From: a virus
IMG/VR virus record: IMGVR_UViG_3300018080_000672
Location: 1 to 20,917 of that record
Direction: 5' to 3' (one strand)
Length of the DNA: 20,917 nucleotides
Shown here: in pieces, positions 3,727 to 20,650 of the stretch
How positions within the stretch are numbered: the stretch's first letter is position 1
How the letters are laid out: each line of letters starts with the position of its first letter
Position numbers and translations under genes: made by a program
The notes under the pieces: generated by a model
Databases searched by the model: none
Seen by the model: the letters and a program-made list of their open reading frames with translations, nothing else
Told to the model about the DNA's origin: nothing

Positions 3727-4008
3727 TTACACTCCTATGCAATAGAGATATCCGACATCATCTTGAGTTACGCCATCAACATAAACACTGCCAAAGTCGT
3801 CTTCTGTTGCGGAAGCTGATGCGCTATTCATATAAACAACGCCATGATCATCAGAAGTTTCAGGTTGGTAAATAGCTCCTATAACTTGACCAAATCCAGT
3901 TTTAACTTCTCCACCAGTTACTGATGTAAATGTACACTTGATTATTTTTAATTTTACAGCTCCCAAGTTAATTATATTCGGTCCTCGTACTGCAGTTATT
4001 AAGGCCAT
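3727..4008 (-). CDS. Small virion-associated protein of unknown function
   Basis: The 93-residue product has no signal peptide or membrane segment and looks beta-rich (GGEVKTGFGQVIGAIYQ, DDHGVVYMNS, DDFGSVYVDGVTQDDVGYLY). Sequences of this style are common as small head or tail completion/decoration proteins next to capsid and adaptor genes; exact function is not known to me. The ATG at 4008 has a strong AAGGAG site 7 bases upstream. That site and the first 13 codons lie inside the 3' end of the O-antigen ligase-like gene in another frame, which suggests this gene was here first and the ligase gene was inserted upstream. Confidence 0.6.
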   Translation of the reverse strand: MALITAVRGPNIINLGAVKLKIIKCTFTSVTGGEVKTGFGQVIGAIYQPETSDDHGVVYMNSASASATEDDFGSVYVDGVTQDDVGYLYCIGV

Positions 4009-5122
4009 TTTTTTCTCCTTTAATAAGACAAAACGCTACTAATAAAATCCCAATTATAGCGGTCGCACTTATGTGTAATGTAATGCTTGTGATCATTGTT
4101 ATTAAATAAGCAATGACTATACTAATTATTATAGTGTTATTTGCTCTCTTGAGCATTACAAATAAAGTTAATAATAAAATTAATAATCCAATTATGCCAT
4201 ATGCAAGAAAAACCTCTAAATATTCATTGTGCAAATGTCTGAAAGGTTCTCCATAAATTGGATAAACCCTACTATAATTATCTGCTATAAATCCAAGCCC
4301 TCTTCCATAAAGAACATTAATTCCATCAATAAAAGTCAAAGATTGCTTCCAAACAATAAACCGATTGTTATCGTCTAATAAAGAAAACTTTTCACGCCCA
4401 AATGCGACCAAAACACTCCCTAGAAAGATTAAAAAACCAATCGATAGGAAAGTAATCTTCTTTGATTTGAAATATTTCATCATAAAATATGTAAACAACC
4501 CAAAGAAACAGCTTACTATTCCAGAAGCGCTATCTGTTAAATAAATGGCCCACAAATTTAATGGCAAAAATAAGAACCATTTATTCCTTAACAATGAAAT
4601 AGTCGTAATTGATAGAAAAGTAGAGCAAACCATAGGATTGCCCAGACTTCCTAGATATGGAATCATCGAGCTTCCTAGCTTATAGTTAGCTCCCCAGTTG
4701 AAAATCTTTATAATGTAATAATATAAATTAATGTCTGCATAAGTGAACACGACCAAAACGGCCTGTATAATTGCAGATATTGACAATATATTTAGATAAA
4801 AATTTTCATCATTCTTTTTTAGTTTTGAGTGAAATTGAATGAAGCAAAGAACGCCCATTACAACGCAAATAAACTGATTTATTACAGCGTAAGATGTAAT
4901 GAGCCATTGATTATAGAATGAAACAAAGATAATTCCTAAACAGATACTTAGTATTTTAATATCTATCTTTTTTCTTCTGGCAAATAGAACTAAAGACATC
5001 ATTACACAAACATTAAAAAACATGTCCTTGGTGAAACGCATGTCTACCGGTATTTTTTCTATTCTTATCCAAAGAGGGAGCAGTAAAATTACTGCTCCCC
5101 AATATATATTAAAATGATCCAT
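3968..5122 (-). CDS. O-antigen ligase/polymerase-like membrane protein (Wzy_C family)
   Basis: The 384-residue product has about 10-11 hydrophobic segments and one long hydrophilic loop near residues 245-300, the layout of the O-antigen ligase/Wzy polymerase superfamily. The loop holds family-typical features: NRFIVW at 253-258, GRGLGF at 273-278, and HLHNEYLEVFLAYGIIG from 296, with the conserved His-Asn before a membrane helix. Such enzymes join or polymerise undecaprenyl-linked glycans in the inner membrane; in a phage they can alter the receptor or exclude other phages. ATG at 5122 has AAAGG 6 bases upstream and is preferred to TTG codons at 5128/5125. The gene lies between decoration-like and small virion genes, overlaps the latter by 41 bases, and is much more AT-rich than both. 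Substrate and activity are unknown. Confidence 0.8.
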   Translation of the reverse strand: MDHFNIYWGAVILLLPLWIRIEKIPVDMRFTKDMFFNVCVMMSLVLFARRKKIDIKILSICLGIIFVSFYNQWLITSYAVINQFICVVMGVLCFIQFHSKLKKNDENFYLNILSISAIIQAVLVVFTYADINLYYYIIKIFNWGANYKLGSSMIPYLGSLGNPMVCSTFLSITTISLLRNKWFLFLPLNLWAIYLTDSASGIVSCFFGLFTYFMMKYFKSKKITFLSIGFLIFLGSVLVAFGREKFSLLDDNNRFIVWKQSLTFIDGINVLYGRGLGFIADNYSRVYPIYGEPFRHLHNEYLEVFLAYGIIGLLILLLTLFVMLKRANNTIIISIVIAYLITMITSITLHISATAIIGILLVAFCLIKGEKNGLNNCSTRTEYN

Positions 5123-5131
5123 CAACAACCT

Positions 5132-11250: not shown

Positions 11251-11684
11251 TCTAATTCTCCCCATTCAGATATAATATTTGGTGTCCTTATTAATTTGCA
11301 TCTATATATTTTCTCATCAACCATGAAATTGCTATTAGATTTAATTGAGTGTTTTAGACCGTCCCTTACAATATCTTGTATTACGAGAATTACTCCACTA
11401 ATAGCTATGAAAAACAAAACGAACATAAAAACATTTATTGATTTACCTTTCTTGTTTTCTAATTCAATCTTTTTTCTTCTATGTTCCATTGCTCTCATGT
11501 TTATATCGTTATCTTTTTTGTACATGTCATTGTCATTATGTTTAAAAGATTGCTTTGGTTGTACATATACACCGTTTAGATATTCATCAATAGACACTGT
11601 GGCACCGCATGACAATGCCTCATCTATTGCCTTATACATTTCCTCTTTATTAAAATGCAGATTCGAGTCGCCTTCTGTTTTCAT
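11247..11684 (-). CDS. Single-span membrane protein before the transglycosylase
   Basis: The 145-residue product has about 80 hydrophilic residues (with HRRKKIELENKKGK just before the membrane), one clear transmembrane segment at about 84-106 (INVFMFVLFFIAISGVILVI) and a 40-residue tail. Positive charge before the span predicts an inside N-terminus. Stop and start overlap with the transglycosylase (GTGA), so the two are probably translated together; a role in lysis, such as a holin or release factor, is possible but the long soluble N-terminus is unusual for a holin. The 5' end overlaps the terminase gene by 35 bases; the GGAG upstream of ATG 11684 is rather far (about 13 bases), and ATG 11639 is an alternative start. 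Confidence 0.5.
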   Translation of the reverse strand: MKTEGDSNLHFNKEEMYKAIDEALSCGATVSIDEYLNGVYVQPKQSFKHNDNDMYKKDNDINMRAMEHRRKKIELENKKGKSINVFMFVLFFIAISGVILVIQDIVRDGLKHSIKSNSNFMVDEKIYRCKLIRTPNIISEWGELE

Positions 11685-12966
11685 AGTATTTTAGTTTCTC
11701 CTCTAGTGTTTTGCCCTTCTTTAATCTATCGATCGGTGAGGTAGCTTTGTACTTGTCCTCGTAAACCATTCTGAATTTCATAGAACAACAGTATCTAGTA
11801 GCGTCCCATAAATGGTTAAAGGCATCTACTGGTTTATTTAATATCTTTCCGTCCTTGCTTTCGGCCCACTTGAAATTATTTCGCTCTTTTATAAAGTCCA
11901 ATGAATCTTCTGTAATATAAGTCTTATATCTTAATATATTCTGAATACCATTAACTATTGAATCCTTCCCCTTGTCCGCTCCTTGCAAATTGAAATATCC
12001 AGCATTTTGAAGATCTTTAATTGTCTTTGGTTCGGCACTGTCGGCCCATATCTCGGCATTTTTTGGTATCTCAAGCTCTTCAAGTCTTTGCTCAATTGAC
12101 TTTTGTTGAGGATTTCTTGGATCTTTCCTGTTCACTAGTCCCTTTTCATAAAGAAGCTGTTTAAAATATAACTCACCTTGTGAAAGGACAACTAAACTTA
12201 GGGCAGTCGGATCATTACTATAACCCATATCCATCCCATAGGCGTGTTTCTTCCACTCTTCCTTTGGCGGTAATTCTTTACATATTTCAGTTCCACCAAA
12301 AATAAGACCTTTGTGTGCGGCCCTTTCTCCTAGACCGTAAATCTTCCACAGAGTTTCATCTGCAGTCCCCATTTTTATGTTTTCAGCAGTAGGTTTCAGG
12401 CGCTCTATTTCGTCTATAATGGCCTGTTCAAGGAAAGGGTTGTCCTTGTAGGTTGACTTAATGAAGGTGCAATCGTCACGTGGTATAACTGTATCATAAA
12501 TCCAATGTGATTCTGCGCTTGGATTGTAATCAATGTATATCTTTCCGGTCGTTCGCATTGCTAGTTGGGTGAATGAATTTTTTGAGCATTCCATGGCCTC
12601 ATTGATCCAAAGAATATCGCCCTTATATCCATGCAGCTTTTGGGTTTCATCAAGACCTAGGAATCTAAATGTTGATCCGTTTTGGAAAGTGTAAATCGAT
12701 TCAGTTTTGTTCATTGCATTTGGATCATATAGATTGAAGTGATTTTGCAATATATCGATGAAGTCTAAGAAAATTGTAGCTTTTACCCAAGTTAACTTAA
12801 GACGCGCAGCCGTACAACGCACCTTCCTAGCAAGGCAAAATGATATCAGTAATTGGATAACGCTATAAGTCTTTGCGCTCCGAGACGACCCCTCTAGTAC
12901 GGCGATCCGGCGTTTATCCTTTCTCAGTGTAGTAAACTGTTTCGTGTGTTTTATTGTGATATTCAT
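11650..12966 (-). CDS. terL: Terminase large subunit (ATPase-nuclease packaging motor)
   Basis: The 438-residue protein has all expected parts of a PBSX-type large terminase. The ATPase half shows a P-loop at 25-33 (EGSSRSAKT), a Walker B at 117-123 (DILWINEA, ending in the catalytic Glu) and IDYNP at 145-149. The nuclease half shows the three acidic sites: GMDMG with Asp246, WADSAEP with Asp309 and NHLWDAT with Asp388. It pumps DNA through the portal into the prohead and cuts concatemers. The P-loop has Ala where Gly is usual before Lys-Thr. The ATG at 12966 has no clear ribosome site in the 31-base gap, unlike almost every other gene here. The 3' end overlaps the next gene. Confidence 0.92.
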   Translation of the reverse strand: MNITIKHTKQFTTLRKDKRRIAVLEGSSRSAKTYSVIQLLISFCLARKVRCTAARLKLTWVKATIFLDFIDILQNHFNLYDPNAMNKTESIYTFQNGSTFRFLGLDETQKLHGYKGDILWINEAMECSKNSFTQLAMRTTGKIYIDYNPSAESHWIYDTVIPRDDCTFIKSTYKDNPFLEQAIIDEIERLKPTAENIKMGTADETLWKIYGLGERAAHKGLIFGGTEICKELPPKEEWKKHAYGMDMGYSNDPTALSLVVLSQGELYFKQLLYEKGLVNRKDPRNPQQKSIEQRLEELEIPKNAEIWADSAEPKTIKDLQNAGYFNLQGADKGKDSIVNGIQNILRYKTYITEDSLDFIKERNNFKWAESKDGKILNKPVDAFNHLWDATRYCCSMKFRMVYEDKYKATSPIDRLKKGKTLEEKLKYYENRRRLESAF

Positions 12967-15397: not shown

Positions 15398-15781
15398 CTA
15401 GTCGCTAGTTTTGTCAGGTTCTTCAATAAATTTAATATTAATGACAGATCCCTCTTCATTGCCAAGTTTTATGGTTTTATCTTCTGGCATAAACTCTTTA
15501 CATAATTTCATTATAAGGTCGACCTTCTCCCTTTCCTCTAACTTTGAATCCTTGTCTAAAATCAACTGGTGCAACTTGGCCTTTACGGTTCCCCAGAAAT
15601 CAATTATTCTACCATCTGGGAGTTTAACCTCACAAAGCTGTTCAAAGAATTGCTTCCTAGACTTCCTGTATTCCCAGTACTTTTTCATTCCTGCTATTCT
15701 ATTTTTAGGATCAGGTTGATATTCAGAGGTAAACTGTTTTGCATTTGGTATTGGCGACCTTTTCGGTTTATCTTTGGGCAT
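15398..15781 (-). CDS. Probable terminase small subunit
   Basis: The 127-residue basic protein has helical segments suited to DNA binding (NRIAGMKKYWEYRKSRKQFF at about 28-47; TVKAKLHQLILDKDSKLEER in the middle) and an acidic C-terminal tail (FIEEPDKTSD), with an N-terminal Lys/Pro-rich arm. It is the first gene of the packaging block, the usual place for the small subunit that recognises viral DNA and regulates TerL. ATG at 15781 has AAGGAG 5 bases upstream. Three genes separate it from TerL, which is unusual. The call rests on position, size and composition; a DNA-binding accessory protein is the main alternative. Confidence 0.45.
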   Translation of the reverse strand: MPKDKPKRSPIPNAKQFTSEYQPDPKNRIAGMKKYWEYRKSRKQFFEQLCEVKLPDGRIIDFWGTVKAKLHQLILDKDSKLEEREKVDLIMKLCKEFMPEDKTIKLGNEEGSVINIKFIEEPDKTSD

Positions 15782-15855: not shown

Positions 15856-16845
15856 TTATTTTAGGTATAACTTTCTGTATCCAAAATCATTTATGTAAAT
15901 TTTTTCTTTCTTTATTAACATTTCTTTTTTTGCTGAAATTAATGATCTTTTTTTTATTATTTTGACAAGCTTAAATCTTTTATCACTTATACTATACTCT
16001 GAAATATATACAGGATGTTTAATTTTATTTGCCCATTCAAAGAATTCTTTATGGTTGAAAGACTTATTTTTATCGTATTCTGCAGTTCCTTTATAAGGTA
16101 TATCACAATATATAATTGAGTCTTTTTCAATTGGCACTTTCTCGTAAGATGCATTGTAATAATTAAGCTGTTCGAGCTGTTCGAGCTGTTCGAGCTGTTC
16201 GAGCTGTTGGAGCTGTTCGAGCCGTTCGAGCTGTTGGAGCTGTTTGAGCCGTTCGAGCTGTTGGAGCCGTTCGAACCGTTCAAGCTGTTGGAGCTGTTCT
16301 TTACTCAAAAATTGATGTAATATTTTAGGAATCCCATTTTTCCTGTAATATTCTATTTTATTTCTTAAGCATAACCGCCTTGATTTTACTCCTGATTTAT
16401 CAGGAAATTTATTTATGCCAATTACTCCTTTTGCCAAGTCGTCAAATTGGTTAAAGACTATTGCATTATGCATTGATTTTTTATATTTCTCAATCTCTTT
16501 GCTAAAAATATATGTTTCCCCAGTATTCCCAAATGACCATATGATTTTTATAAATATATCTTTTTCTTTCTCCCTAAGAAACCTATCTCTATCGATAAAT
16601 TCAGGCCTATAAACCTTATAGGAATATTTCCCTTCTATTGCATCTTTTATCAAGTCACACATTCCTGGTCGTATTTCATTAAAATGGAAGTGCTTAAATC
16701 CATTTTTACGATGTAATAACATCGCATGAGTTACAGAAAAACCACCACCAAATAAATCATAAAAATGTTTGGCATTTGGGAATACCTTGCAAACTTCTTT
16801 TGCAATTTTTGACTTTGATCCCATGTAAGAAAGACCATAATTCAT
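15856..16845 (-). CDS. Adenine-specific DNA methyltransferase (D12/Dam class) with tandem-repeat insert
   Basis: The N-terminus (YGLSYMGSKSKIAKEV) and SAM-binding motif (HFYDLFGGGFSVTHAML, residues about 27-43) are typical of D12-class N6-adenine methyltransferases. The catalytic motif is IIYCDIPYKGT at about 244-254, so Ile replaces the usual second residue of DPPY. Between the two lies a Leu-Glu-Gln repeat (residues 183-227), encoded by 9-base tandem repeats in the region where the target-recognition part is expected. ATG at 16845 overlaps the ParB-like stop as ATGA; ATG at 16869 has no ribosome site. In phages such enzymes protect DNA from host restriction or act in control. The gene is very AT-rich (about 15% GC in one 60-base line). 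Recognition site unknown. Confidence 0.85.
   Translation of the reverse strand: MNYGLSYMGSKSKIAKEVCKVFPNAKHFYDLFGGGFSVTHAMLLHRKNGFKHFHFNEIRPGMCDLIKDAIEGKYSYKVYRPEFIDRDRFLREKEKDIFIKIIWSFGNTGETYIFSKEIEKYKKSMHNAIVFNQFDDLAKGVIGINKFPDKSGVKSRRLCLRNKIEYYRKNGIPKILHQFLSKEQLQQLERFERLQQLERLKQLQQLERLEQLQQLEQLEQLEQLEQLNYYNASYEKVPIEKDSIIYCDIPYKGTAEYDKNKSFNHKEFFEWANKIKHPVYISEYSISDKRFKLVKIIKKRSLISAKKEMLIKKEKIYINDFGYRKLYLK
16165..16299 (-). repeat. 9-base tandem repeat inside the methyltransferase gene
   Basis: On the plus strand the unit is CTGTTCGAG, near-perfect for several copies at the 16168 end and degenerate towards 16299. It encodes Leu-Glu-Gln or Leu-Gln-Gln/Leu-Glu-Arg triplets, about 15 in all. 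Gain or loss of units keeps the frame, so the length of the helical insert could vary between related phages. Confidence 0.85.
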
Positions 16846-17390
16846 ATTATCATTCCACAATGTGGGCATAGCTTTTGGTTTTTTTCATCATCTTTTGTTT
16901 CTGCATCATTGAAATCACTAGCTCCCAAATCACCGCTATCAATATCAATTTCCCTAAAATCTCCAAGATTAATCGAATCAAAAGAAAACATTTCCTTAAG
17001 ATCATCCACTGAAATATCAATATCCTCAATAAAATGATTAAGACCAAGCTCTGTCATTTTCCCATATTGACTAGAAATTGCTAAAATTCTTTCTTTAGCA
17101 TCCTGATAATTTTCTGCATTGACCAAAACGATAGGATATTCATCAGGAATTTTAATCCCCTCTTCTTTCATTTTCAACAAAGTCAATTTTCTTTGAGTTC
17201 CGTCTAATAAATTATTGGCCTTATCTTTCTTCCAAACAAAGAACGGAGCAAAAAACCCTTTAGCAAGCATCGACTTTTTTAATTTCTGATAATTTCCCTC
17301 GGTTAAATCCTTTAAGTCGTCTTGGATAATATGAAGGTCTTCTAGTGTCGAAATGCTTCCAGTAGATTGACATGTTATTTCTATATTCAT
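16842..17390 (-). CDS. ParB-like protein with C-terminal half zinc ribbon
   Basis: The 182-residue product has a ParB/sulfiredoxin-type domain in residues about 15-115: a partition-like start (IIQDDLKDLTEGNYQKLKKS), FFAPFFVWKKD, and the motif LLDGTQRKLTLLKM at 61-74 (DGTQR in place of the more common DGHHR). The C-terminus ends in CPHCG (Cys175, Cys178), half of a zinc ribbon. Phage proteins of this type are common next to DNA methyltransferases. The ATG at 17390 has AGGAGAGGGG upstream, and its stop overlaps the methyltransferase ATG (ATGA), so the two are probably coupled. A DNA-binding or nuclease-related partner of the methyltransferase is inferred, not shown. Confidence 0.75.
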   Translation of the reverse strand: MNIEITCQSTGSISTLEDLHIIQDDLKDLTEGNYQKLKKSMLAKGFFAPFFVWKKDKANNLLDGTQRKLTLLKMKEEGIKIPDEYPIVLVNAENYQDAKERILAISSQYGKMTELGLNHFIEDIDISVDDLKEMFSFDSINLGDFREIDIDSGDLGASDFNDAETKDDEKNQKLCPHCGMII

Positions 17391-17399
17391 TCCCCTCTC

Positions 17400-18152
17400 C
17401 TATAATGATGGTACCAATCTTTTATCACCTTTTAAATTACGATCGTGAACAGCTATTAAATGATCAATATAATCTTTTTTGCAACTTTGCTTTTTTAAAT
17501 ACCGATCATTCTTTTCTAAAGTAACTAAAAACGAGCGATAATTTATCTTGAACTGATATATTATCCTGGTAATTGAAAAAATGAATTTGTTCTTGTCCCA
17601 ATCTTCAAAGCCAATCTCTTTCATCCTATCTAAAAATGCTAACAACCGATAAGTTTCGTCTCTGTATCTAATTTTATACTTCCCCTCTATAATTGCCTTA
17701 ATTGTGTGCCCTGAACTATTGTTGAAGTGAAAAAAAAGAATTGCCAATGTTGATATTAACAATCTTGTATCCTTATAATCATCGTAAATAGCAAGTAAAT
17801 CAGTCAATTCATTATCATGGCCATGATTATACTTACCAATAAGCATTATTAATTCAGAAATATTGTGTTTTTTCCCGGTTGTATTCATGCTGTAGACATC
17901 TTGCCAATTAGCAGCAACTTCCATAATCATGTAATAAATAGGTAGACCGAGCATTTTGCAGACTTCAAACCTATGTTGGCCGTCCACTATTTTAAGGGAT
18001 TGATCCACTATAATAGGATAATACATCATCCTATTCTTTTCTTTGGTCAATTTGATCAATCTTTTGACTGTACTAGAGTTTATGTCTCTGTTGAAATGAA
18101 GAAATCCAAAACTATCATAGTCCAATGATGAATATATTTTTGGACTTTTCAT
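17400..18152 (-). CDS. ParB/sulfiredoxin-like domain protein
   Basis: The 250-residue product has the ParB N-terminal fold in residues about 15-90: LHFNRDINSSTVKRLIKL, then PIIVDQSLKIVDGQHRFEV with the key DGQHR at 57-61, followed by CKMLGLPIYYMI. Residues 95-250 are helical and basic, with no recognisable HTH, and end in KGDKRLVPSL. Stand-alone ParB-like domains in phages can bind DNA, hydrolyse nucleotides or act as nucleases. ATG at 18152 has AGGG about 6 bases upstream. It is followed 9 bases later by the second ParB-like gene and then the methyltransferase, forming an AT-rich three-gene unit. Confidence 0.75.
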   Translation of the reverse strand: MKSPKIYSSLDYDSFGFLHFNRDINSSTVKRLIKLTKEKNRMMYYPIIVDQSLKIVDGQHRFEVCKMLGLPIYYMIMEVAANWQDVYSMNTTGKKHNISELIMLIGKYNHGHDNELTDLLAIYDDYKDTRLLISTLAILFFHFNNSSGHTIKAIIEGKYKIRYRDETYRLLAFLDRMKEIGFEDWDKNKFIFSITRIIYQFKINYRSFLVTLEKNDRYLKKQSCKKDYIDHLIAVHDRNLKGDKRLVPSL

Positions 18153-18178
18153 TTCGCGCCCTTTTTTTATCTTATTTA

Positions 18179-18238
18179 TTAGTCACCGTAACCGTAACCG
18201 TCACCGAAACCGTAACCTCTAAAGTCTATTTCTTCCAT
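18179..18238 (-). CDS. 19-residue Gly/Tyr-repeat micropeptide
   Basis: The minus strand from ATG at 18238 encodes MEEIDFRGYGFGDGYGYGD and stops with two TAA codons in a row. AAGGA lies 6 bases upstream, as good as the sites of accepted genes around it, and spacing to both neighbours (9 and 26 bases) fits the operon. The second half is a 6-base tandem repeat (GGT plus TAC, TTC or GAC). It is too short for standard gene finders. Gly/Tyr/Asp repeats of this kind occur in some phage small proteins; no function is known to me. Translation is inferred from the ribosome site and spacing. Confidence 0.55.
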   Translation of the reverse strand: MEEIDFRGYGFGDGYGYGD

Positions 18239-18247
18239 ATTTGATCC

Positions 18248-18475
18248 TTAATCTGCCAAACAGGTTGATAGCGGCCATTTAACCTTTTCCCTCTTATTTT
18301 TCAACCAACATTTAATGAGCTTTTTCTGGCATTGCCTTTGAGCTTGAATCTGATTTTCAAAATTAATCTTTTGATTTTTTATGGCCATTTTAGTGAAAGA
18401 CATAAAACCAGAATCAAATTTAGGCGGTGATATTAATTGGCATGCCAACATAATTATCTTTAATGCTTCGATCAT
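18248..18475 (-). CDS. Mini-protein with hydrophobic N-terminus and C-x6-C-x15-C pattern
   Basis: The 75-residue product begins with a short hydrophobic stretch (ALKIIMLACQLI) and then is basic (KKLIKCWLKNKREKVKW). Cys lies at 12, 49, 56 and 72; the last three have the same spacing as in the 52-residue protein at 10566-10724. ATG at 18475 has AAGGA 7 bases upstream and starts one base after the previous stop. The N-terminus could be a weak signal peptide; MLAC is not a good lipobox. Function unknown. Confidence 0.55.
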   Translation of the reverse strand: MIEALKIIMLACQLISPPKFDSGFMSFTKMAIKNQKINFENQIQAQRQCQKKLIKCWLKNKREKVKWPLSTCLAD

Positions 18476-18476
18476 C

Positions 18477-18686
18477 TTAGTTTCCTTTTTCTACTTTCAT
18501 ACCATTTAGTAATTTACCGGACTTTAATCGACAAGAAATCAAGGCCGGCGAACATCCTAGTTTTAGTGCGGCCTGAGCAATTGATGGATAGACAATATCC
18601 CCTATCTTTACAGGTTTTCTTGCCTTAGCGTAAACATACTTTCTATTAATATGGTATTCACGGTCTATTGTTTCTTTTTTACTCAT
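18477..18686 (-). CDS. Small DNA-binding protein with NUMOD1-like helix-turn-helix
   Basis: The 69-residue product is basic and carries YPSIAQAALKLGCSPALIS (residues about 33-51) followed by RLKSGK, the pattern of the small HTH repeats found at the ends of homing endonucleases (NUMOD1-like) and in stand-alone phage regulators. ATG at 18686 is preceded by a run of seven G residues at 18691-18697, which serves as the ribosome site with a 4-base spacer. The 76-base gap upstream holds a small CTAC/GTAG hairpin (18726-18737) and no gene. A regulatory role is inferred from the fold alone. Confidence 0.6.
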   Translation of the reverse strand: MSKKETIDREYHINRKYVYAKARKPVKIGDIVYPSIAQAALKLGCSPALISCRLKSGKLLNGMKVEKGN

Positions 18687-18762
18687 ATTACCCCCCCTAA
18701 AAAGTATAAGGCCGACTCATCCATACTACCCCGGTAGCGTTTTGTTAGTGCGACCATGGCTA

Positions 18763-19383
18763 TTAACCATTATCTATTAAATCCTCTATTGGTGTCGTTT
18801 TTGACCTATCTATTTCACAATCGTCTAAATTACCACTCAAACCAGAGCAATCTCCGATTAATCCTGAACAGTCACCACTTAAACCAGAGCAATCTCCTCT
18901 TAGACCTGAGCAATTTCCTGCTAATTCTGAACAAATGCCAACCATTCCTGAACAATCCCCAAATATATTAGTGCAGTCCCCCTTTAACCATGAGCATGTT
19001 CCACCTAAACCAGAGCAATCCCCCACTAATTTAGAACAATCCCCTATTAAACCGGAACAGTCGCCTCTTAACACTGAGCAATCTCCGATTAACCATGAGC
19101 AAATTCCACTTAGGCCGGAACAATTTCCTCTTAATTCTGAGCAATCTCCAATTATCTTAGAGCAATCTCCACTTAGGCCGGAACAATTTCCTCTTAAACC
19201 GGAACAGTTTCCTCTAAGTCTCGAACAGTCGCCTATTAATCGTGAACAGTCGCCTATTAAATTTGAGCAATTACCTCTAAGTTTGGAATAGTCGCCCATC
19301 ATGCTATTATTTGGACCTAAAACTTGCTCATTACCTACGAAATGATATAACTCATCTCTTACTATTCTTAGTCTTCTTTTCAT
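18763..19383 (-). CDS. Heptad-repeat protein (G-D-C-S-x-L-x), probable solenoid
   Basis: The 206-residue protein has a short basic N-terminus (MKRRLRIVRDELYHFVGNEQ) and then 22 consecutive seven-residue repeats of the form G-[DN]-C-[ST]-x-[LIM]-x (residues 30-183), ending GNLDDCEID. Cys is present in all but the first unit (Tyr). The regular spacing would stack Cys and Leu in ladders, as in a beta-solenoid. Similar repeat proteins of unknown function occur in other phages. ATG at 19383 overlaps the ERF stop (ATGA) with AGGAG about 10 bases upstream, so it is probably co-translated with the recombination gene. The high Cys content (about 20 residues) suggests metal binding or a reduced cytoplasmic fold; neither is shown. 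Confidence 0.75.
   Translation of the reverse strand: MKRRLRIVRDELYHFVGNEQVLGPNNSMMGDYSKLRGNCSNLIGDCSRLIGDCSRLRGNCSGLRGNCSGLSGDCSKIIGDCSELRGNCSGLSGICSWLIGDCSVLRGDCSGLIGDCSKLVGDCSGLGGTCSWLKGDCTNIFGDCSGMVGICSELAGNCSGLRGDCSGLSGDCSGLIGDCSGLSGNLDDCEIDRSKTTPIEDLIDNG
18835..19296 (-). repeat. 21-base coding tandem repeats
   Basis: Twenty-two in-frame 21-base units encode the heptads of the overlying gene. Some neighbouring units are nearly identical in DNA (for example two GAACAGTCGCCTATTAA copies on the plus strand near 19224-19260), while others have drifted, which suggests expansion by slippage or unequal recombination. Confidence 0.85.
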
Positions 19384-20111
19384 TTTGAGTTATCTCCTAA
19401 TACTGACAATTCATCATATTGGAATACATAGGCACTAATTTGGGCCAACATACTCTTTTGAATATCATTGAGTTTATTCTTTTTGGCCCAATCCTCAATT
19501 GCATGCTGTCTATTCCTTAAATCCTCAATATCAATCTCTTTTAATGTTTTGCCTTTAATACTACCTGTTGGAATAACCCAGTCCCTATTATCAATCTTAG
19601 CTATAATATGAGAGTATTTAGATTTGATTTGATTCTGACTTGATGATGAGGCCACTTGCTCAGGTTTGGCAAACTTGTTCTTGATTTCTTTGGTATCTTT
19701 TTTAACTGTACTGTTAGTCTGATATTTTTGTTCGTTAGCATCAGAATCCTTTGCATCGTCTATTAAGAGCAAAGCATTAAGCGCATACTTCCTGGCATAA
19801 CTGCTTGCTGTTCCAGAAATTTGACTTTCATCCATTCCCTTTTTTTGCAATGCCTCTCTGGCGAAACTAGTCGCGCTTATCTTGAAATCACCATGCATGA
19901 AGGTTGCAGTAGCTACAAAATAATACCTATCGCCAACTACAACCACATTATCATTCATTATTATTATAGAATCCTCTAGAAGAGGTTTAACTCCTTCAAG
20001 AATATCCTCACATGACCTATATTTATACCGGCCAAAATTATTATATTGGTTTTTAGGTGCCTTTAGATTTTGTTGTATCTTTGCAAGCAACTTCATTCCT
20101 TTCTCACTCAT
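19380..20111 (-). CDS. erf: ERF-family single-strand annealing recombinase
   Basis: Residues 1-125 match the ERF family closely: GRYKYRSCEDILEGVKPLLE at about 28-47, FAREALQKKGMDESQ at 83-97 and TASSYARKYALNALLLIDDA at 101-120. ERF proteins form rings and anneal complementary single strands in phage recombination and genome circularisation. After a Lys/Ser-rich linker (about 125-165), residues 175-230 (DWVIPTGSIKGKTLKEIDIE and following) resemble the small GKxKGKTL domain seen at the ends of exonuclease X-like proteins and of some ERF proteins. ATG at 20111 overlaps the Gp157-like stop (TAATG), and the stop overlaps the next gene (ATGA), so these three genes form a coupled unit. Confidence 0.9.
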   Translation of the reverse strand: MSEKGMKLLAKIQQNLKAPKNQYNNFGRYKYRSCEDILEGVKPLLEDSIIIMNDNVVVVGDRYYFVATATFMHGDFKISATSFAREALQKKGMDESQISGTASSYARKYALNALLLIDDAKDSDANEQKYQTNSTVKKDTKEIKNKFAKPEQVASSSSQNQIKSKYSHIIAKIDNRDWVIPTGSIKGKTLKEIDIEDLRNRQHAIEDWAKKNKLNDIQKSMLAQISAYVFQYDELSVLGDNSK

Positions 20112-20626
20112 TACTTACCGCCCTTGAAGTATTTTCTTACTGCTATAATTGACTTTAGCTCTGCACCTTCTACATAGTCCCCGGCCTCAAGATCTTCTTT
20201 GATCAACTTTTTGTTAACTTCTGTTACTATCGTTTCGGTTAAGTAACATTTATCAAACTTAGTGCTACTATCTATAACCAATTTCTTGCCTTGATTGACT
20301 GGTTTATAGGTGTAATAGTCCCCTTTAAGCTCGCCAGTCTCAATTACAACTTGTTTAATCCGTGCATCAATGTTCTTGTAGACGTTTTCAACCGCCTTTC
20401 TTTTGGAAGAAATTGTATTCTCAATCTCTTTCAAATAGCTAACATCTGATTTCAATTTGTCCATAAATGTTGCGTAATTATCGACTTTTTTTGGAAGCTC
20501 GGTCGAAACCTGTTTAATCAATTCCTCGACTTCCGGTGTTAGCTCACCGTCATTCTCCATTAATCTTTGGGAAATAGACGATTGTTTTTTAACAAGGTCG
20601 TAAAGTGTTGCCTTTTTTTCTGTCAT
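20111..20626 (-). CDS. Gp157-like protein
   Basis: The 171-residue protein has the layout of the siphovirus Gp157 family: ATLYDLVKKQSSISQRLMEN at the start, then an acidic ELTPEVEELIKQV, a long helix (VSYLKEIENTISSKRKAVEN, then KNIDARIKQVVIETG) and a short beta end (YYTYKP, KKLVID). The family is found in recombination clusters of many phages, usually beside ERF or other annealing proteins, and has been linked to phage resistance in Streptococcus; its molecular role is unclear. ATG at 20626 is preferred because GGAG lies 6 bases upstream; GTG 20638 and ATG 20629 are alternatives. A long central coiled coil is likely. Confidence 0.75.
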   Translation of the reverse strand: MTEKKATLYDLVKKQSSISQRLMENDGELTPEVEELIKQVSTELPKKVDNYATFMDKLKSDVSYLKEIENTISSKRKAVENVYKNIDARIKQVVIETGELKGDYYTYKPVNQGKKLVIDSSTKFDKCYLTETIVTEVNKKLIKEDLEAGDYVEGAELKSIIAVRKYFKGGK

Positions 20627-20650
20627 CATGTTCTCCACTACATATTGTTA

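Follow-up and report, generated by a model that had tools for sequence, protein, structure and literature searches.

The window analysed here is the whole 20,917-bp IMG/VR virus record IMGVR_UViG_3300018080_000672, within which all positions are numbered. It carries a DNA methyltransferase (MTase) gene that holds a tandem array of nine-base units, translated as repeated L-[QE]-[QR] triplets. Nearly all relatives keep the array at this site; its units are homogenised at the DNA level within each gene, and between near-identical genomes its length changes by whole in-frame units. We consider it probable that the enzyme is a Dam-like phage MTase of the D12 class, paired with a ParB-like gene, serving anti-restriction and carrying at a domain junction a variable-number array under selection on its peptide. 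A family-wide, length-variable in-frame array at an MTase domain junction appears undescribed in the literature searched; the array peptide strings gave no literature matches and wider searches gave nothing on point.

The window MTase passes the gathering score of Pfam PF02086 (32 against a cut-off of 22 bits) and matches phrog_56 at 1e-23. Motif I (FYDLFGGGFS) precedes motif IV (IYCDIPY, of the DPPY type), the order found in the alpha group, and D256, P258 and Y259 are invariant across 84 relatives. From its sequence, the protein is predicted to methylate adenine at N6 and is classified as a Dam-like phage orphan MTase in the D12 class. Its partner is a ParB-like gene: a profile iterated from ParB2, the ParB-like protein whose gene overlaps the MTase start, found a ParB-like open reading frame (ORF) immediately preceding the MTase in 75 of 97 cases. 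The top Foldseek matches are E. coli Dam and T4Dam (E-values reaching 4e-8), with low TM-scores of about 0.35-0.5 and a high root-mean-square deviation that leave the domain arrangement uncertain, and a profile search of solved structures also points to T4Dam as a relative. In these nearest solved structures by profile and fold the domain order is alike. Both enzymes, however, lack an array and recognise GATC, whereas the window MTase has one and falls far under the cut-off of the curated GATC-specific Dam family TIGR00571 (27.4 versus 114.85 bits). The AlphaFold model (predicted local distance difference test, pLDDT, 84) has a helix at each end of the array, which stops about 18 aa ahead of IYCDIPY, and in the profile alignment the array end falls near T4Dam residue 145. 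In E. coli Dam the DNA-binding domain covers residues 57-144 and the catalytic domain residues 1-56 and 145-270 (PMC10073500); by this alignment, the array would lie at the junction through which the chain passes back from the DNA-binding into the catalytic domain.

The array, METHYLTRANSFERASE, comprises 14 consecutive 9-bp units. A two-unit 18-mer probe of it, with up to 3 mismatches allowed, matched 12 times, whereas 100 shuffles yielded 0 matches. Of the 14 Leu codons counted, 12 are CTC, a codon not commonly used for Leu elsewhere in the gene. Gathering the family by protein search and by pattern yielded 120 homologous ORFs, a set partly chosen via the array pattern (80 loci came through patterns outside the array), and the array was found in almost all of them. 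It spans 4-24 units, most arrays ending 15 or 17 residues ahead of the DPPY-type motif. Over 104 genes and 1055 units, the grammar is L in 96%, Q/E in 93% and Q/R in 80%, percentages that are upper bounds because the unit-finding pattern itself favours those residues. In the same genes E and R are associated inside units, LQQ and LER being over-represented (chi2 p 2e-22). Over 89 genes, the Leu-codon match probability is 0.86 within the array and falls to 0.23 outside it, codons being reused within one array and differing from gene to gene. Such likeness within arrays and unlikeness between genes argues for repeated duplication at the DNA level combined with selection on the peptide. DNA hairpins as a driver of the array were considered and rejected: their energies were no better than those of homogeneous synonymous recodings (z -0.17, not significant), and the strands of the window array gave the same outcome (z -1.1 and -1.6).

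Array MTases are also found in bacterial and archaeal assemblies (L305-L345) of many phyla, mostly metagenome-assembled genomes (39/85 matches), and four genomes (L341, L240, L128 and L388, the last being phage 16W23) carry two adjoining array MTases of unlike array length. The Xenorhabdus MTases examined have no array, and a plasmid search returned nothing useful. A further repeat protein, of a NAQVYGNA... hexapeptide type, is encoded near an array MTase at L007:13038-13886 (+).

Array length varies independently of relatedness. Its coefficient of variation is 0.29, against 0.04 for the rest of the protein, and the mean length difference is 14.4 aa for the 5 pairs above 90% core identity and 10.9 aa for the 862 pairs at 30-40%. 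An earlier note on this DNA had remarked that the repeat unit sizes are multiples of three, allowing copies to change without loss of frame, and had proposed comparing repeat numbers among close relatives. These numbers are not fixed, and in-frame copy changes were seen both in the MTase array and in the heptad gene considered below (three pairs). The contigs L256 and L260 align over 11,133 bp with 0 mismatches, their single difference being an 18-bp gap in the array. L254 and L260 (99.1% over 18.6 kb) are 36 bp apart in the array between identical 4-kb flanks, while the arrays of L311/L336 (97.3%) and L268/L274 (97.6%) are 18 and 72 bp apart. Repeats may be given a wrong length in assemblies from metagenomes, and for this reason the comparison was extended to isolates. 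Two dairy isolates that share a host strain, LP0109 and LP0209, have arrays 18 bp apart, with 20 substitutions in the 909-bp gene. Between clades of dairy isolates MTase gene length differs by 72 or 99 bp, both divisible by 9. Assembly errors do concentrate in repeats and most of the variant pairs come from metagenomes, but we judge it very unlikely that they account for most copy-number differences, given this isolate pair, the differences between isolate clades, the 6 versus 18 units of the phages phi15 and phi145, and the fact that every array change read directly is in frame. Copy-number change in the MTase array is real but not rapid in dairy phages.

Several points weigh against the reading that we favour. 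Most array-variant pairs are metagenome assemblies, open to mis-assembled repeats, and direct reading of isolates covers a single pair. Above ~97% likeness, dairy isolates mostly show a single MTase gene length, and this constancy inside tight isolate clades means that array change is not fast within dairy-phage lineages. AlphaFold confidence is <50 for array residues 209-224. Methylation activity is supported for distant relatives only, by single-molecule real-time (SMRT) data (PMC4190342). In Bacteroides phages the D12 MTases are short, at 242 aa, and lack the array, which is thus not required throughout the class; for the same reason, isolates of these phages were unusable for studying array variation.

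The shorter relatives and the low structural confidence, like the high variability of array length unlinked to relatedness and a hairpin potential not above that of synonymous recodings, would also suit a tolerated, near-neutral microsatellite, in which an L-Q-Q-like codon triplet of a surface loop multiplies by slippage, and only forms that break the frame or fold poorly are removed by selection. This explanation is possible but, in our view, unlikely, as the array is near-universal at one position over ~30-60% identity and obeys a strict grammar written in lineage-specific codons. The E-R pairing within units, taken together with position and grammar, argues for selection on the peptide.

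If the array is indeed a selected extension of an anti-restriction MTase, its units would be gained and lost through slippage or recombination between identical units, and selection would retain an amphipathic, charge-paired and probably helical segment. The MTase would guard phage DNA from host restriction by methylating it, as has been proposed for its lactococcal 936 relatives, and changes in array length would alter DNA engagement instead of switching the enzyme off. Orphan methyltransferases are one of the chief means by which phages counter restriction. The window enzyme is likely to be an anti-restriction MTase with a length-variable repeat extension.

In lactococcal 936 phages (Skunavirus), the alpha-group MTases of the replication region bear the same L-[QE]-[QR] array just ahead of the DPPY motif. 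M.Phi15I and M.Phi145II/M.Phi93II are, like the window MTase, alpha-group N6-adenine phage orphan enzymes with this array; they share ~35% identity with it and have 6 or 18 units, against 14 in the window. In the methylome paper (PMC4190342), the motifs CC6mAG for phi15 (M.Phi15I) and CY6mAG for phi93/phi145 (M.Phi93II/M.Phi145II) are assigned by inference from SMRT data, and the protection from HphI and DpnII that the paper demonstrates is due to different MTases of these phages. The text as read does not discuss the array; '55/15' residues were dropped from its alignment figure and, by length and position, these appear to include the array. M.Phi15I and M.Phi145II, with 6 and 18 units, are 85% identical at aligned positions. 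This is the sole suggestive pair for a possible effect of array length on target specificity, an effect confounded by the other substitutions between the two enzymes. That the array works as a length dial, where gain or loss of units would shift target recognition or activity while the enzyme stays on, is a more speculative proposal that we hold to be doubtful; if true, this pair (6 units with CCAG, 18 units with CYAG) would be a natural example of it.

The best-known precedent for in-frame repeats altering recognition is EcoR124, in which 2 versus 3 TAEL units in the HsdS of EcoR124I and EcoR124II change the target gap, N6 versus N7 (PMC3874165). Both cases concern in-frame repeat number in a DNA-modification system. 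The EcoR124 repeat, however, has a 12-bp unit and lies in a helix that separates two specificity domains within a Type I S subunit, whereas the window MTase is a single Dam-like chain with its array at one domain junction, so that it does not share the EcoR124-type placement. Phase-variable Type III mod genes also have repeats in an adenine MTase gene and switch expression ON or OFF by frameshift (PMC10073500); the window MTase falls outside this class because a 9-bp unit cannot shift the frame and the variants are in frame. The PARCEL repeats, with a 25-residue DUF285-type unit and palindromic coding DNA (PMC2996958), are likewise amphipathic coding repeats of variable number that have spread through mobile DNA, but their sequence is unrelated. 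Membership of the window repeats among them was rejected, their units being of 3 and 7 residues with no DUF285 Pfam match.

The earlier note had gone further and proposed that three neighbouring genes with in-frame repeats of 21, 6 and 9 bases form one module, diversifying beside an ERF annealing protein. All three repeats lie where it had placed them, although the six-base repeat of the Gly/Tyr peptide is weak, Tandem Repeats Finder giving only 5.5 units. The genes are adjacent in the window, and the single record shared by the MTase and heptad sets (G040/L063, 12.5 kb) keeps the order of the heptad, ParB2 and MTase genes, interrupted by further genes; one heptad contig, L072, also bears Gly/Tyr arrays. 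This record is nevertheless the only instance in 50 heptad records with the MTase and in 50 MTase records with the heptad gene, and at the blastp level it shares no other gene with the window. A rate of 1/50 is above the collection-wide rate of the heptad pattern yet amounts to no conserved cassette, and a missing partner is a soft absence, as fragments are common among the records. For Gly/Tyr arrays the counts are 2/50 MTase, 3/50 heptad (one long array only) and 0/50 other viral records, again above collection-wide chance but well short of a conserved set; no evidence links ERF to array changes. A joint module aided by ERF is thus extremely improbable: the three repeat genes form no single device, and the conserved partner of the MTase is the ParB-like gene. 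Matches to LQ repeats in the heptad record G014 were discarded as spurious, being repeat-only with stops inside.

The Gly/Tyr peptide, which resembles the longer G-x arrays of some phages, is a third, unrelated element. On the heptad contig, neighbouring Gly/Tyr/Ser/Asp repeat ORFs (L072:4907-5846, -) start with ME-R-I-D/G, like the MEEID peptide of the window. A separate Gly-x family with a C-terminal W-[DE]-E-V-T-S is present in MTase contigs (L273:1653-1975, -; L208:112-250, +).

The cysteine-containing heptad protein belongs to a repeat family of its own, in which copy number changes too and whose genes sometimes adjoin those for recombination or replication. An IMG/VR scan for the heptad coding pattern returned 77 stretches, and the loci examined hold 88 heptad ORFs, whose neighbours include recombination and replication genes. 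Copy number differs by 84 bp between L024 and L043, by 63+42 bp between L028 and L038 and by 126 bp between L009 and L010, all metagenomic. The window units have a mean DNA identity of 0.60-0.67, the lowest among 37 family members (family mean 0.83); being this old at the DNA level, they give no sign of recent slippage and point to a pattern held at the protein level. No superperiod was seen, lags 1-7 being alike. Foldseek matches were discarded, the AlphaFold pLDDT of 58 making them meaningless, and the PDB profile matches look compositional. Among pentapeptide-type Pfam repeats none matched, only the low-complexity MSG and TigB doing so. phrog_19577, a phage minor head protein, is matched by 23/34 members (best 2.5e-15; 0.0024 in the window, inside the repeats). 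At least two heptad genes of unlike copy number, several in tandem, share a contig in L035, L054/L069, L061, L074, L083 and L086, which suggests gene-level duplication as well.

The window is coded on the minus strand nearly throughout, with packaging, head and tail genes to the left and the ERF/Gp157 recombination genes to the right (Table 1). The genes around the repeats are co-directional, overlapping or separated by short gaps, and are likely transcribed as a single transcript. Two ParB-like proteins among the neighbours and a location between recombination and packaging genes, both put forward in the earlier note, are borne out by family matches. Its 'HTH' protein resembles the DNA-binding tail of intron endonucleases, with a PF20987 score below the curated cut-off. 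Amid the phage structural genes, positions 3968-5128 (-) code for a membrane protein of 386 aa whose Wzy_C match (PF04932, 2e-13) marks an O-antigen ligase domain; this is possibly a host surface-modifying gene.

Table 1. Features of the window, with the evidence for each assignment.
Feature	Position	Strand	Evidence or remark
Terminase large subunit (TerL)	11650-12966		phrog_2 6e-35
Candidate small terminase, by position only (upstream of TerL)	15398-15781	-	no family match
Predicted D12-class (Dam-like, alpha-group) N6-adenine DNA MTase, 337 aa	15856-16869	-	PF02086, phrog_56, Foldseek
Array of 14 in-frame nine-base units, L-[QE]-[QR], within MTase	16168-16293	-	aa 193-234
ParB2, ParB-like, overlaps MTase start	16842-17390	-	phrog_498 3.7e-8, phrog_620 1e-4
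ParB1, second ParB-like protein	17400-18152	-	phrog_12305 4e-23
Gly/Tyr peptide, 19 aa, MEEIDFRGYGFGDGYGYGD	18179-18238	-	AAGGA Shine-Dalgarno-like stretch
Small Cys-containing protein, 75 aa	18248-18475	-	no family match above cut-off
69-aa protein resembling DNA-binding tail of intron endonucleases	18477-18686	-	PF20987 21 bits (below cut-off 27); phrog_314 0.004
Cys-heptad repeat protein, 206 aa; start overlaps ERF stop	18763-19383	-	
22 in-phase heptads, G-x-[CY]-[ST]-x-[LIM]-x, inside the 206-aa protein	18835-19296	-	
ERF single-strand annealing protein	19380-20111	-	PF04404 3e-33
Gp157 / Mu Gam-like protein	20111-20638	-	PF05565 2.2e-19

The Cys-heptad proteins constitute a second phage repeat family, as yet uncharacterised, in which copy number changes. 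A near-universal array in a large MTase family, with members in well-studied dairy phages, offers a ready way to ask whether in-frame repeat number tunes such an enzyme. Should the array act as a length dial, a phage population would sample methylation patterns against the changing restriction of its hosts.

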